Assembly (NCBI RefSeq): GCF_001638985.1
Contig: NW_017265138.1
Coordinates: 1,552,376-1,616,375, forward strand
Reading direction: 5' to 3'
Origin: Phycomyces blakesleeanus NRRL 1555(-)
Taxonomy: Eukaryota > Mucoromycota > Mucoromycetes > Mucorales > Phycomycetaceae
Length of the DNA: 64,000 bases
Every line of letters starts with the position of its first letter. Position 1 is the stretch's first letter. Both the position numbers and the translations under genes were made by a program. Under the pieces are notes generated by a model that was not told where the DNA came from, searched no databases, and worked only from the letters and a program-made list of their open reading frames with translations. Shown here piece after piece: positions 25,145 through 57,393 of the stretch.

Positions 25145-26412
25145 ACACTCCGACAATAAAAATCATCGATGAACCACATTTTTCATGCTGCTTTTTTTAT
25201 AACATTCTTTACCTTTCTCTTCCTCACACCTTTACCTCAAACTTAACCACCGATGTCGAAAAGTAATAAAAGAATTAAAACTACTCCCTCCAGACGCGAG
25301 CTATCAGATTTTGAGCGTGGAGGCATTGTTTGGCTCTCAAAAGCCGATCATACTCCAACTGACATCGCAAACCGTATGAACATTCCTAGAACTACAGTTT
25401 TCGATACAATAAAGCGCTGGGAGACTACTGGAACAGCCAAGACAAATACCAGACCTGGGAGACCAAAGAAACTTAGTGTAGCAGACGCCAAAAGTCTTTG
25501 TTTGAGTGTGAGACGTAATCCTTTTGAGAGTTATGGATACCACCAGGAAAATTTGGGAGCTGCTGGCGTTATTGTCTGTAGACAGACAGTTATCCGATAC
25601 CTACGAGCAAAAGGCTTCGGTTCTTACACCCCTGTATCTAAACCAAAGTTAACCCGTGAGCAGAAAAAGAATCGGTTGCGTTGGGCTAGAGCTAGGGCCA
25701 GTTTTAGCATCGAAGACTGGAGCAGAGTGGCGTGGTCAGATGAGTCGAGGTTCATGGTGAAAGGCAATGATTCTGACCCATCCATAATTCGTAAACGATG
25801 GGAGAGGCACCAGGAACGCCATACACTAACAACAGAAAAGTATGGAAAAGGTTCCGTGATGGTATGGGGTTGTTTCTGGGCTGGTGGCATTGGGCCATTA
25901 TCGTTTATCGAAGGATCTGTAGACCAAGATGCATACGTCAATTGTCTGTCTAAGGACTTCAATCCCTGGTACAAACAATTAAATGAAGAACATGACACCA
26001 TGTTCACATTCCAAGAAGATGGTGCTAGCTGTCATACTGGGTCCTACACGACGTGGTGGAAAAACCGTTGGGAGATTAAACGATTTGACTACTGGCCGTC
26101 GCAAAGTCCAGATTTGAACCCAATTGAGCATGTCTGGCATGCCCTAAAGGCCAAGGTTCAAGAGAGAAAGGCCTCTATTAACAATGTGCAAGAGCTGAAG
26201 GCCTGTATTCTTCAGGAATGGGAGTTGCTTGACCCTGGAGTTCTGCAAACTCTTGTAGCAAGTATGCCTGACAGAGTTAAAGCAGTCATAGAAGCTCGTG
26301 GTGATAATACCGTATATTAAACCTCATTTTTTTATTTTTATTCTATAATATATATACATTTCTCTATAACAACACAATGTTTGGTTTTATTTTGTCAACT
26401 TCTTGAGAAGAT
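25145..26412 (+). mobile_element. Tc1-like transposon, ends tentative
   Basis: Extent is inferred from the transposase and from the weak GACAA-centred inverted repeats on either side, with possible TA flanks near 25143 and 26411. The ends need a second copy for confirmation. Confidence 0.4.
25253..26320 (+). CDS. Tc1/mariner-family transposase, apparently intact
   Basis: A single intronless frame of 355 residues. The N-terminal half carries two helix-turn-helix-like DNA-binding parts (about residues 15-60 and 75-125), including the GRPKKLS stretch at 69-75. The catalytic DDE residues are in place: D163 in WSDESRF, D256 in QEDGASCHT, and E292 in SPDLNPIEHVW. By my count 35 residues separate the last two, against 34 in canonical Tc1. 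No stop codon or frameshift interrupts it. Candidate terminal inverted repeats are weak: CCGACAATAAAAAT near 25150 against TTGACAAAATAAAA on the opposite strand near 26385-26400. The frame has higher GC than the flanking AT-rich DNA, consistent with a recent insertion. Confidence 0.93.
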   Translation: MSKSNKRIKTTPSRRELSDFERGGIVWLSKADHTPTDIANRMNIPRTTVFDTIKRWETTGTAKTNTRPGRPKKLSVADAKSLCLSVRRNPFESYGYHQENLGAAGVIVCRQTVIRYLRAKGFGSYTPVSKPKLTREQKKNRLRWARARASFSIEDWSRVAWSDESRFMVKGNDSDPSIIRKRWERHQERHTLTTEKYGKGSVMVWGCFWAGGIGPLSFIEGSVDQDAYVNCLSKDFNPWYKQLNEEHDTMFTFQEDGASCHTGSYTTWWKNRWEIKRFDYWPSQSPDLNPIEHVWHALKAKVQERKASINNVQELKACILQEWELLDPGVLQTLVASMPDRVKAVIEARGDNTVY

Positions 26413-52202: not shown

Positions 52203-52438
52203 ATTCCGATTTACTAAATACGAATTTATACAAGGGGTTTCTCAAGCACCCGCCAAGGTCCTAAAAGTTGGCGTTGAAATCCAAATAAAGATTAGTGAAT
52301 GTTTTCTAATTTAGCCAATTTTGTTGGCGAAGGTTGCTACTTTAGAAAACTCTCGTCAATCCGAAAAAAGGAAACCACCGCCAAAATTGAGGACCTTTAG
52401 GGTGCTTAAGAAGGCCCTTCAAAATAAAATTCGGATTT
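52203..52438. repeat. Imperfect foldback (MITE-like) element
   Basis: The left half, with CTCAAGCACCCGCCAAGGTC, and the right half, read in reverse with CTTAAGCACCCTAAAGGTCC, can pair along about 115 bases each with interruptions. Both arms share the TTTTCTAA and GCCAA segments near the centre at about 52320. Such structures are typical of old miniature inverted-repeat transposons. Confidence 0.5.
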
Positions 52439-52819
52439 TGATACATATCTTTAAAATTACTGCAACAAAATGTTTATACATTAGGGTAAAGAGAAATAAA
52501 CAGTATGCGTTTTTAAAGTGTGCATTAATCAACACGTGAAGAATAGTGACTATGATATTTCTCACTAAAGTTTATTATTCTTGACATAGTAGACTCTTTC
52601 TTCTGTTTATGCTTCGATTGTAGTTACTTAAAAAGGTGTCTACTAATGATAAAAATGTAATATGTCTTAATAAAATTCAAACGGTTTTATGTGATTTAAC
52701 TTTTTCTTATTGTATTCTAGCCAACTACACAAATTTTGATCATTAAGGCACCTATCGATAAAGCGGTCAAACCATAATATATTCAAGCAACAGTCAGACT
52801 AGTAGATATTGTAAACAAT

Positions 52820-55099
52820 ATGGCTACCTATACATATTTTATCAACAAACCATTCTTTATGGAGGTTTTCTTGTCTCTGGTTGAAAGACAAGTACGCGAC
52901 GGCATAAAAAGTGGAAATGGAAAATCAAAAATGAAAGACGAAACACTTCGATATCGTGATTTTATTATGAAGCACAAAGAAGCGTGTTGTGAACATGCTG
53001 GATATGTACCTCCAAAGCTAACTCACGCTAAACAATCCGCCGATTATGAATCTACCAGGATACCTACCGCCTATATAAACAACATAAAAGCACACTTTGG
53101 TAATCGACTCCACCAGGTCCTGAATTTAATCTGTGATAAAAAGAAGAAAGCAAAAGAACTTGAGTGAAAAATGAAAGATGCAAGATATACCAAAGAATGC
53201 AACAAAGGGAGTAATTCGAAATAGCGGGACTATTCCATGTGCGAATATCAAAACATCAATAGCCAGAAAACAGTTACCAAGGGGTGATTTTTTAGATGAA
53301 AATCAAAGGTCTTTGGTGGCAAGTATTTTGGCGATATATCCTGAAAGCTATACACTTTTAAAGAGCTCGATATATTATGATGTTCAAGCAATTCCTTTAA
53401 ATCATATGAAAGCCTTCTGCAAACTTGGCCAGCTATTGAAACCATTGCCATTTGATAAGAAGTAAAACACTCATAAGTCATTTGTTGTTTTTCCAATACG
53501 TACATCGTTCATTACTGCCTACATTACCGTCGATTCATTGATAATGGACTATCATATACTCGGCTTCGAGTCATTCAAAGAAGAAAAATCGGCTATTTGG
53601 GATAAAATTCTAAATATAAAATACAGGGCACTTAAGAAACAAAAGGTTGACAAATCTTTATTTTTTCAAGAGATGATGCTAACCAATGGTGTTAGTGTTA
53701 CTATTTTGAAGCAAAATTTTGAATCTGGACGCTGTCAAAAAACGGATGCTGCTGTTACATCTGGAGAATCCAGCACCAATACAGGTCGGAAGATTAAAAG
53801 AACAAAAACAATTAATGAAGATAGCTTTACGTACGTTGAAGACCTGACAACAGAACAGCTTAAAAGAACAAAAGGCAGATGTGTGCTCATAGATCCAGAA
53901 CGTTAGGATATTTTATATTGTATGAAAGAAACAATTACGATAAACAATTCTCAATTATTTCGATTTACAAAAAATCAAAGAAACAAGAAATCACGACGGT
54001 TAAGGTTTTTAACAAACAATTTGAAGCCAGAGTCTATCCAAGTTAGCAGAACGTCAATTTCCTGAATTCCCTTGTAAAACACTTAATTATAAACAGTTTG
54101 TTCGATATCTAGAAGCAAGACGATAAGCTGAAACACAATTGAAAGGGTACTATTCGAATGGAACTTTGGAAGAAAAATTTGTGTATTACCCTGATCCTTT
54201 GGATTTCGTAGTTGAAAAAACAGGGGACATTTATTACGGAAAGCATTTAATGTTCATTAAGCGTCTTCGCGATGCCCGTCCTGGAATTGCTAAGCTTGAT
54301 GCTTATATCTACTATCTCACTCTCCTTCTGTCAACTAAGCATATTGCCCGAAGACTAGCAAGTCAAGTCATTGGCAACTATAACAATATTATTGAAGATA
54401 CAACTATCTAGTTAAAGAAAGAGCAACTATCAGAAGGAGTCAATGCCAAACAAGTTCAAGTTAAGCAGGGACCGCATGTTATAGTACCAAAGCTCCTCGT
54501 TTTACCGTTTCGTCAAATGAAATTTATATCAAATATAAACTATGACAGGTGCGATTCGAGGTTGGCAGAGGATCTGAGAATTTTTTTTGAAAAGGATCCA
54601 GTTTTCGTCTTTGGGGACTGGTCCGCCCCAAATGTGAAGTTCCAAGAGCCATCAAGGAATAAAGACATATTGAAGTATCTGGAGAAAAGCCGTTTCTCTA
54701 TTTATATGATCAATGAATATAAGACGTCGAGTTGCTGTTCCATTTGCCCAACAGGTGAGATGGAGAACTTTAAAAAAAATGCCAATCCTCGACCACTTCA
54801 AAGAGAAAAATTTCCCAATGTACTATGCCATGGTCTATTAAGGTAATAATGGAAATCAGATAAGGGTACAGCATACATAGTTGATTACTTCTTTTAGATG
54901 TAAAAATAAAGCCTGTTTAGTCAATGGGAAAGGAAGGCTTTTTAACAGAGATACAGCAGCAGCTATAAATTTTCGTTTAATATTAAATTCTTTGAGGGAA
55001 GAAGATCGAAGACCGCCAAGATTTATTAGAACATCAAAGGTGCTCTTCAGCGGTCTCGGTATAATTCAAAATTATGTGATAAAGAAAAGTTTTATCTAA
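52820..55099 (+). pseudogene. Decayed Fanzor-like (eukaryotic TnpB homologue) RNA-guided nuclease gene
   Basis: Consecutive open segments at 52820-53167, 53178-53465, 53466-53906, 53907-54060, 54060-54411, 54412-54841 and 54899-55099 read as one ancient protein broken by lesions. Segment ends include a TGA at 53165, in-frame TAA at 53463 and TAG at 53904, a frameshift near 54060, and TAA/TAG at 54124 and 54409. The C-terminal half has TnpB/Fanzor marks: RuvC-I-like VLIDPER then DILYCMKE, a VFGDWSAPNVKFQEP stretch, a zinc ribbon with CCSICP and CHGLLRCKNKAC cysteines, and RuvC-III NRDTAAAINF at 54944. A GT-AG intron (54842-54898) joins LL-R-C-K in frame. Fanzors are the eukaryotic members of the OMEGA RNA-guided nuclease family. 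This copy cannot make the full protein. Confidence 0.72.
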
Positions 55100-55742
55100 A
55101 TATAGTAATTATACACCAAAAAATCATGAATTACTTTCCGAAAATTGTTAATTCTACCAAGTAGTTTTACGCGCGAATTTGCAGGGGAAACTACTCGGTA
55201 TAACTCAAAGCAGCGCTAAAATAATAAAACAACTTTAAACTACGGTTTTGGTAAAACGTCTTCTAGAAATTTCATTTTTTATGCTCTACTCTTTTCACTC
55301 CTTTTTACTTTTAAAATATTCAAAATAAACAACAATACCTTTGCTTACTATCTGCAATTAACTTTAGTAAAGATAAAATTATGCTCAATATTATAGACTT
55401 CTTAAAAAAAAGAAACTTCTATGCAAATATTACAAGAACAAAGATAAAAGATATATAAAGAGATTTATTAAAGAAAGCCACCAAAAATGAATAGCTATTT
55501 TAGCAGGCTGCAATTAGTCCTATCATTCCTAATTATATCAGCGTTTTTTCAATATAATTTTACCAAGTAGTTTCCCAAAGTTTTTCACCAATCAAATCAT
55601 ATAATTAGCATCAAATTTTGGAACAAAATCTATGGCTGTGTAGCATGATTACTATAAAAAGCAGTCTCTCTACTTTATTTGTAATTTCCCGTTTTTTTCT
55701 TATAATCAAAATAATTATACCGAGATCGCTGAAGAGCACCTT
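55037..55742. repeat. Inverted pair at the 3' end of the Fanzor relic
   Basis: Bases 55037-55066 (AAGGTGCTCTTCAGCGGTCT and onward) match the reverse complement of 55713-55742 at 29 of 30 positions. The left copy lies in the last codons of the Fanzor-like frame, so the right copy is an inverted fragment of the same 3' end or a terminal repeat. The 650 bases between hold three copies of a TACCRAGTAGTTT motif (55157 and 55561 forward, about 55190 reversed) and no gene. Confidence 0.65.
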
Positions 55743-56237
55743 CAAGGGGAGTATTCAAGTAATCACAATTTTTTTCCCTTTATCTTAATCTTGGGAACTT
55801 GAGACGGCGGGTGTAATTGGAGACCATCGCCATTTGGAAGAGAAAAGCAGCGACATTAGGAGATTGAAAGTGGTAGAAGGAGAGAGAAAAATAAAAAAAG
55901 TAAATAGTAGTTGGCAGTAAAGAAGCCAGCAACTCGACTCTAGACACTATACAGCTTGAAAGCTTTTCCTAATAATAAAGTCTCTTACTAGTCACTTTGC
56001 CCCCACTCAAGTACTCTGTTGCAGACACGTGTATTCAAAATTGCAAATGATTGGCTCATGTCAAAATAAAAAAAAGGATGGCGTTACAAAGTGTGTGGCC
56101 CAAAGGCCATAACTTGCGCCTTAAAAAAAGAACGCGTCTCAAAATGTGTGGCCCAAAGATTATAACGCGTTTTAAAAAAAAGAAACACTCTCACGGTATT
56201 ATTTTTCTTCTTTGCGCTTTTTCATTAGTTTACTCCA
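55743..56237. other. Intergenic with GGCCCAAAGGCC repeats
   Basis: A GTGTGGCCCAAAGGCCAT-type motif occurs near 56090 and, decayed, near 56143. A third copy (TTTGGCCCAAAGGCCATT) lies inside the following gene at about 56326. The frame starting at 56051 overlaps the next gene in another phase. Confidence 0.4.
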
Positions 56238-57393
56238 ATGTACAGCAACACCAGCAGCAGCAGCATCAGCAGCATCAGCAGCATCAGCACCCGAAAAAAA
56301 GTGTCCTTCAACGGCTTGTTTGTGTTTGGCCCAAAGGCCATTCACAAGCATGTCCCAAAGCTGTTGAGACACACATTTCTGGTTAGATTAGCTAAAACTA
56401 ATCTAGCCAAAGTTTTTGATCGAAAGATCAAAAAAGTGAAAATGATTGGTAAGTCATGTCTCTATATAATAGTAGATAAACAATATAATATTAATCAATA
56501 ATATACATATAGCACCAGACCTGCCCAAGGGGCTTAAGCGACGATTGGAGAAAGAAAATGAGCTGGAGCACAAAGCTACAGCTCATTTTATCAAGCAAAA
56601 GAAAATGAGAATAGAAGAAGAAGTACGAAGAAGAAGGGATATAGACCCAAGAGAAGCAGAAAGAAGAAGAAAAGCAGAAAGAAGATATGTAGAAGCAGTA
56701 AGAAGAAGAGAAGCAGAAAGAAGAAGAAGAGAAGCAGAAAGAAGAGACGAAGAAAGAAGAAGAGAAGAAGAAAGAAGAAGAGAAGAAGAAAGAAGAAGAG
56801 AGATAGAAAGAAGAAGAGATGAAGAAGATGATGATTATGAAGAAGAAAGTGATGAAGAAGAAGAAAGTGATGATGAAGAAGAAGAAAGTGAAGAAGAAGA
56901 AGAAAGTGAAGAAGAAGAAAGTGATGAAGAAGAAGAAAGTGAAGAAGAAGAAGAAAGTGAAGAAGAAGAAAGTGAAGAAGAAGAAGAAGATGATGATGAA
57001 GAAGAAAGTGAAGAAGAAGAAGACGAGGATGACGGTGATTATGAAGAAGATAATGATGATGAAGAAGAAGAAGAAGAAGATGATGATGAAGATGAAGAAG
57101 AAGAAGATGGTGATGATGATGAAGATGAAGAAGAAGAAGATGGTGATGATGACGGAGAAGATGATGACGAAGAAGAAGATGGTGATGATGACGAAGAAGA
57201 AGATAATGAAGAAGAAAAAGAAGAAGAAGAAGACGAGGATGACGGTGATTATGAAGAAGACGATGATGATGATGAAGAAGAAGATGAAGAAGAAGATGAA
57301 GACGAAGATGATGATGATGATGATGATTATGAAGAAGAAGATGAAGAAGAATATAGTGAAGATGAAGAATATGAAGATGATTATGAAGAATAA
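56238..57393 (+). CDS. Highly charged protein with basic Arg/Glu middle and long acidic tail
   Basis: Two exons (56238-56448 and 56513-57393) give 363 residues; the intron is GT-AG and keeps the frame (KMI|APDLPKG). I do not recognise the family. The N-terminus has a Ser/Ile repeat from AGC/ATC codons. The next 70 residues are balanced and could fold: FGPKAIHKHVPKLLRHTFLV through LPKGLKRRLEKENELEH. Then comes an Arg/Glu repeat (units such as EAERRRR and EERRREEE, likely a single charged alpha helix), and the last 190 residues are nearly pure Glu/Asp with a few Ser, Gly and Tyr. The two phases of charge resemble nucleolar or histone-chaperone-like proteins, but that is only composition. Expanded GAA/GAT repeats explain the tail. 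Confidence 0.5.

Follow-up and report, generated by a model that had tools for sequence, protein, structure and literature searches.

A probable Fanzor1 pseudogene of Phycomyces blakesleeanus and its Fanzor RuvC insertion without the cyclophilin-docking prolines

A Fanzor1 relic of the PpFz1 branch

Within a 64,000-nt stretch of the Phycomyces blakesleeanus genome (the whole of which is called the window here), positions 52730-55039 very probably hold a Fanzor1 pseudogene of the branch of PpFz1 from Parasitella parasitica, which has lost both its protein and its probable guide locus. An earlier annotation made from the letters of the window (the sequence-only reading) had proposed a dead Fanzor gene at 52820..55099, and this was borne out by the lesions described below and by the comparison with PpFz1, which a read-through of the whole relic matched with E=4e-137. 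Three separate pieces also matched PpFz1 on their own (E=9e-20, 2e-31 and 6e-9), and the similarity is far beyond chance. The gene is where it had been placed, but its limits are different: homology to the open relative P0001 starts at 52730 (tblastn), the match to the sister copy L010 stops at about 55039, and the tail of the open reading frame (ORF), VLFSGLGIIQNYVIKKSFI (55040-55099), which had been taken as Fanzor, belongs to a 706-bp transposon. The quoted motifs (VLIDPER, GDWSAPNVKFQEP, CCSIC, CHGLLR, CKNKAC and NRD) were all found on one strand, the plus strand, in the order claimed, with the Asp codon of VLIDPER at 53892-53894, the Glu codon of KFQEP at 54646-54648, CCSIC at 54733-54747 with CHGLLR next, CKNKAC from 54899 beyond an intron, and the Asp codon of NRD at 54950-54952. 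The profile search that had been suggested fared worse than the PpFz1 comparison, in that Pfam recognised none of the six separate pieces as TnpB/Fanzor (PF07282 included) and gave weak unrelated matches only. Rfam at gathering thresholds yielded no match within the window, and a megablast search of phage records found nothing similar.

The relic was compared with five open relatives (P0001-P0005, four from source 'lgn' and one from 'jgi'), with L010, with an alignment of 21 rows including 20 relatives (A1), with a wider set of 39 relative proteins, and with the genome (53.5 Mb, 60 contigs). Its coding features are as follows.

52730..55039, plus strand: Fanzor1 pseudogene, full homology span with REC/WED, RuvC with its insertion, and zinc ribbon (tblastn of P0001, PpFz1 and L010)
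52778..53164, plus strand: N-terminal piece (comparison with P0001/P0002)
53175..53462, plus strand: second coding piece (REC/WED)
53466..53903, plus strand: third coding piece, with RuvC-I VLIDPER at its end (PpFz1, E=9e-20)
54157..54501, plus strand: segment of the Fanzor RuvC Insertion (FRI), about 115 residues in the read-through, without P-x-P at the position of PpFz1 P614/P616 (PpFz1 alignment)
54715..54717, plus strand: putative catalytic Glu codon, E632 of INEYKTSS, corresponding to SpuFz1 E541 (alignment); a stop in L010
54843..54897, plus strand: GT-AG intron of 55 nt, phase 2, in the zinc ribbon, splitting the Arg codon of HGLLR/C (HGLL-R/CKN)
54898..55039, plus strand: last exon, with CKNKAC and NRD, to IRTSK

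Lesions and near-neutral decay

The reading frame is interrupted at seven sites, all on the plus strand.

52775..52777: N-terminal in-frame stop TAA, outside the part common to L010
53165..53206: stop TGA at 53165, then a frame change, outside the part common to L010
53463-53465: stop TAA closing the second piece
53904..53906: stop TAG, also in L010
54036..54040: frame change, not in L010
54124..54126: stop TAA, which L010 lacks
54409..54411: stop TAG, not in L010

In addition, 21 codons of P0001 and P0002 are missing from the relic just before FINKPFF, and its C-terminus is broken off at the transposon. Because of these six stops, two frame changes, the missing 21-codon block and the lost C-terminus, this copy is unable to yield a functional enzyme. 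The sister copy L010 spans only the gene portion 53459-55039 and has eight extra stops in the compared codons (from 53466), including one in place of the catalytic Glu codon. Over 504 codons (stop codons excluded from the estimate), nonsynonymous divergence between the two copies (dN) was 0.087 and synonymous divergence (dS) 0.097, and since their ratio is 0.89, both copies have been under little or no constraint since their separation. Transitions made up 99 of the 139 substitutions between them (53466-55039). As the stop at 53904 is common to both copies and substitution since then has been near neutral, the gene was probably already broken before they parted; against this stands the chance that the shared stop stems from parallel mutation.

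RuvC site and zinc ribbon

In SpuFz1 of Spizellomyces punctatus, the metal ligands are described as D383, N385, E541 and D606, with E541 coordinating Mg, in the available part of the report (PMC10432273). In the printed alignment (offset 394), D383 pairs with the VLIDPER Asp, D606 with the NRD Asp and E541 with E632 of INEYKTSS, which we take to be the catalytic Glu on alignment. This fits PMC11423790, whose accessible text puts the Fanzor Glu on a loop that precedes the zinc-ribbon (TNB) domain. The relic thus has the RuvC Asp-Glu-Asp arrangement with its Glu on the loop ahead of the zinc ribbon (SpuFz1 alignment), and between this Glu and the final Asp lies a C4 zinc ribbon (CSIC + CKNKAC) with its cysteines intact. 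The Glu of KFQEP, earlier put forward as the displaced catalytic residue, is ruled out by this alignment and by its counterparts in two active nucleases, Asp in PpFz1 and Thr in SpuFz1, although 20 of the 21 rows of A1 conserve it. Every element of the Fanzor1 motif D-X(125,275)-[TS][TS]-X-X-C4-X(5,50)-RD, as it stands in the available part of Bao and Jurka 2013 (PMC3627910), occurs in order in the relic, with 10 residues from the final Cys to RD and 278 in read-through numbering from D to [TS][TS], slightly above the published limit of 275. In sequence matches the relic was more similar to Fanzor1 than to Fanzor2 or TnpB, and Fanzor2/IS607 was not closest.

The GT-AG intron noticed earlier within the zinc ribbon was confirmed at 54843-54897. 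Of 24 homologous loci in the genome, 10 show the intron under a strict definition, which asks for GT at the matching base together with a last exon that can be recognised; several more had the last exon after an AG with the donor mutated or shifted. Among the 20 relatives in A1, seven stop exactly at the intron point (P0001, P0003, P0005, P0007, P0015, P0022 and P0023), and four of P0001-P0005 end at or just beyond HGLLR, the intron site, as expected of predictions that halt at an unspliced intron. By these comparisons the intron is old and common to several families, which supports the proposal that the parent gene was adapted to eukaryotic expression.

The FRI segment lacks the cyclophilin loop

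FRI comprises about 100 residues in PpFz1, where it binds cyclophilin via P614 and P616, and the accessible sections of the source report it from Parasitella and Rhizopus only (PMC11423790). Residues ~446-560 of the relic aligned to it and were skipped by SpuFz1, and the predicted structure of this segment has three strands followed by helices, at middling confidence. Within this stretch of PpFz1 the sole P-x-P is the one formed by P614 and P616 (YPQPE; offset 409, in agreement with native numbering). The relic has RDARPGIAK, without a P-x-P, at the cyclophilin-docking position; its P-D-P (YYPDP) lies ~30 residues before that position and not at the docking place. None of P0001-P0005 has a P-x-P at the docking position, and the loop is present in all five Rhizopus rows of A1. 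A simple P-x-P pattern over the 39 proteins was found in 10 of 17 Rhizopus-named ones (some of them short or truncated) and also in P0002, elsewhere in the protein. Part or most of FRI without P-x-P was seen in Mucor flavus (P0014) and Cokeromyces (P0019 and P0031), and Helicostylum (P0020), Pilaira (P0023) and Coemansia (P0034) have no FRI insertion. Because the relic, P0001-P0005, P0014, P0019 and P0031 carry all or part of the segment without P-x-P, the distribution of FRI is wider than that of its cyclophilin loop. The relic takes FRI beyond Parasitella and Rhizopus, minus the cyclophilin loop, and so tests the idea that FRI exists for cyclophilin binding; paper listings on Fanzor with cyclophilin or with Mucorales name no other report of this distribution.

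Loss of the 3′ end and the neighbouring repeats

The following features, without assigned strand unless stated, flank the relic.

55037..55742: 706-bp transposon carrying 30-nt inverted repeats, where the 3′ end of Fanzor is broken off
55743..57000: unrelated dispersed repeat, starting at once right of the 706-bp transposon
52232..52419: ~187-bp palindromic miniature inverted-repeat transposable element (MITE), with solo copies elsewhere
52420..52747, plus strand: upstream stretch, probable 5′ leader, with a second copy at L049

Full-length copies of the 706-bp transposon occur on other contigs with identity up to 97%. A simple insertion of this transposon into the gene was considered and rejected: the Fanzor 3′ flank of L010 is not resumed in the window to the right of the transposon, where a different repeat stands. 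In the genome search this flank occurred at L010 only, with 72 bases in common with the window, and the window copy has therefore lost everything beyond IRTSK. The four bases TCAA stand on both sides of the 706-bp transposon, which could be chance, and its copies elsewhere show no single consistent target duplication. The dispersed repeat also occurs elsewhere without the 706-bp transposon; over 55743-57393 of the window it has many copies, including on contigs C5, C3 and C15 (84-99% over 55740-56100), and it runs into an extremely acidic low-complexity ORF.

Neither edge of the window copy showed terminal repeats belonging to it, so the transposon said to have carried it is a conjecture for this copy. 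The ~187-bp palindrome, which lies upstream of the gene in the window and downstream of L010, was considered as a Fanzor terminal repeat and rejected as a MITE that occurs alone with its own ends. L049 (C15:640761-641326) is a lone copy of the upstream stretch with the same MITE, 85% identical over 52232-52747, and breaks off at the first codons. Elsewhere in the window, 25253-26320 (plus strand) is an open 355-aa ORF for a Tc1/mariner-type transposase (HTH_Tnp_Tc3_2, DDE_3). Another protein encoded in the window has its nearest named match in Phycomyces nitens, at 81% identity.

Related copies and post-stop hairpins

Searching the genome with 54412-54843 returned 24 places, the window copy (L009) included, which fell by DNA similarity into family A (5), family B (14), the window copy with L010 (2) and the single loci L021, L024 and L032; searching with another piece brought one more place for A and two for B, along with two others. 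Within the piece used as query, families A and B share 24-41% identity with the relic. Intact relatives had been expected in the same genome, and the relatives were found, but no intact gene copy was seen in the genome stretches read (mostly 1.5 kb either side of a match). A 574-aa frame of family B was rejected as an intact copy, having two stops inside the match and yielding 263 and 280 aa in our own scan. The PF07282 profile matched 11 further places, none among the 24, and eight of these were inspected. These PF07282-positive Fanzor/TnpB-like loci (L001-L008) belong to other families and were not matched by the window piece; in those read, the match crosses the ribbon and no intron is visible. 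Right ends are shared in families A and B; in A, ~110 nt of them correspond, in inverted orientation, to the left part of other copies. A first search for a left inverted repeat of family B gave no consistent left end.

The guide RNAs of relatives, which were to be sought by comparing 3′ flanks, could be followed as far as candidate hairpins, present in L010 and in both family A and family B; the window lacks this region. Past the break, L010 still has a basic C-terminal tail resembling the one in P0002; behind it, two hairpins are predicted side by side, the second of 5 bp directly after the first. The stop codon of families A and B is directly followed by a hairpin whose loop is mostly of TTNNCG type. 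With anchors placed by hand at 20 of the 24 loci (L009, the window copy, L012, L027 and L032 were dropped, as no homologous motif was seen), 16 of 20 had stems of at least 5 bp (5-8 bp, covarying, mostly on a TTNNCG-type hexaloop, from which some loops depart); L022, L023, L024 and L025 failed. When 5′ and 3′ arms from different families were paired, such stems arose in 21 of 212 combinations. An automatic scan for a stem of at least 5 bp on a TTNNYG loop found 15 of the 24 homologous loci and two of eight other PF07282 loci (17/32 vs 2.9 expected), the stem at L024 and L025 lying at another position.

The 261-nt post-stop segment of family B was found in at least 40 places (40 of 119 first-look candidates were scored), four of which coincide with Fanzor gene loci and 36 lie away from them (e.g. 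L083-L098, with C5:994799-995057, C3:2838135-2838393 and others). Among the 36, we fetched 16 at ~1.3 kb each: 13 match the family B element from the last exon onward only and three have other gene patches, and the hairpin pattern was seen in 13 of the 16. It is possible that the places away from genes are ghost elements able to supply guide RNAs in trans.

Discussion

The class and the state of the relic leave little room for other readings. A horizontally acquired prokaryotic-type TnpB or Fanzor2 (IS607-like) element would have the RuvC and zinc-ribbon plan in common with it, and PF07282 matches do occur elsewhere in the genome; with Fanzor1 as the best match, an intron in the ribbon, an FRI insertion and none of six pieces matching PF07282, we give this origin hardly any credence. 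That the relic is a still functional Fanzor1 rescued by readthrough or frameshifting, or is broken only through assembly errors, is very improbable: it retains its three catalytic positions, its zinc ribbon and both splice sites, but against this stand its own stops, frame changes, codon gap and broken C-terminus, together with a sister copy that has decayed through stops of its own, one at the catalytic Glu, at a near-neutral dN/dS.

The post-stop hairpin is harder to assign, and we lean towards a candidate omega-RNA scaffold with some reserve. The covarying stem and its loop at 16 of 20 loci argue for this, as does the second hairpin of L010, since PpFz1 omega-RNA has, in the accessible part of the source, a first stem SL1 of 7 bp and a second, SL2, of 4 bp (PMC11423790). 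Several results weigh the other way: the folding energies of six hairpin regions are ordinary, within family B the hairpin segment shows no conservation beyond that of the exons, and in families A and B the element runs ~220-250 nt past the hairpin, whereas published Fanzor1 guide RNAs extend past the element end in the available portions of PMC10711439 and PMC10432273. The position right behind the stop codon, this continuation of the element and the ordinary folding energies would also suit a transcription terminator or 3′-end processing signal of the Fanzor mRNA, an alternative that we regard as plausible without thinking it probable. If the hairpin is a scaffold after all, one might conjecture that in families A and B it lies ~220-250 nt inside the element, with the guide fixed by the element and not copied from the insertion site, that many ghost copies holding little beyond the last exon and the scaffold load a nuclease made elsewhere, and that the FRI fold predates and does not need cyclophilin docking. 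We consider this combination unlikely; were it true, the window locus would represent a nested transposon parting nuclease from guide.

Omega-RNA binding and RNA-guided cutting are published for PpFz1 and SpuFz1. By homology, the live ancestor of the relic would have bound an omega-RNA transcribed from the DNA lying 3′ of the gene, recognised a short target-adjacent motif, opened a guide-matched duplex and then cut it with the RuvC Asp-Glu-Asp site. The gene was probably broken before the relic and L010 split, both then decaying near-neutrally, and the relic has lost its C-terminus and its putative guide-encoding stretch at the 706-bp transposon, a stretch that may persist in L010 as the two hairpins. 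With that stretch missing here, protein and probable guide are both lost. The relic shows one way in which a Fanzor dies, by protein decay together with loss of the probable guide locus, in a genome where a covarying post-stop hairpin accompanies several Fanzor1 families and also stands at places away from nuclease genes.

Comparison with known systems

PpFz1 (PDB 9cf0-9cf3) aligned with the relic over nearly its full length, with 40% identity over 555 structurally aligned residues, and resembles it in domain order, in the FRI inside RuvC and in the D-E-D site; PpFz1 differs in having the loop prolines that dock cyclophilin, and the relic is a pseudogene. The hairpin pair of L010 resembles the SL1 and SL2 stems of PpFz1. 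SpuFz1 (8gkh and others) shares the D383/E541/D606 site and the zinc ribbon but has no FRI, its alignment skipping relic residues 447-565. P0001-P0005 are closer (54-67% identity, FRI of 115-117 residues, no P-x-P in the loop) and differ in having open frames. The family B places away from genes are similar to the 'ghost' loci of Spizellomyces, although there the guide lies past the element end in the available part of the report (PMC10432273), and here the element continues for ~220-250 nt after the hairpin. Three Fanzor1 families of Phycomyces blakesleeanus, PBl-1 to PBl-3, were catalogued by 2013, with PBl-3 given as MuDR-like with 9-bp target duplications in the accessible text (Bao and Jurka, PMC3627910), and the relic may belong to one of them. 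The relic itself is an instructive but ordinary fossil of the known Fanzor1 kind, whose value is comparative.
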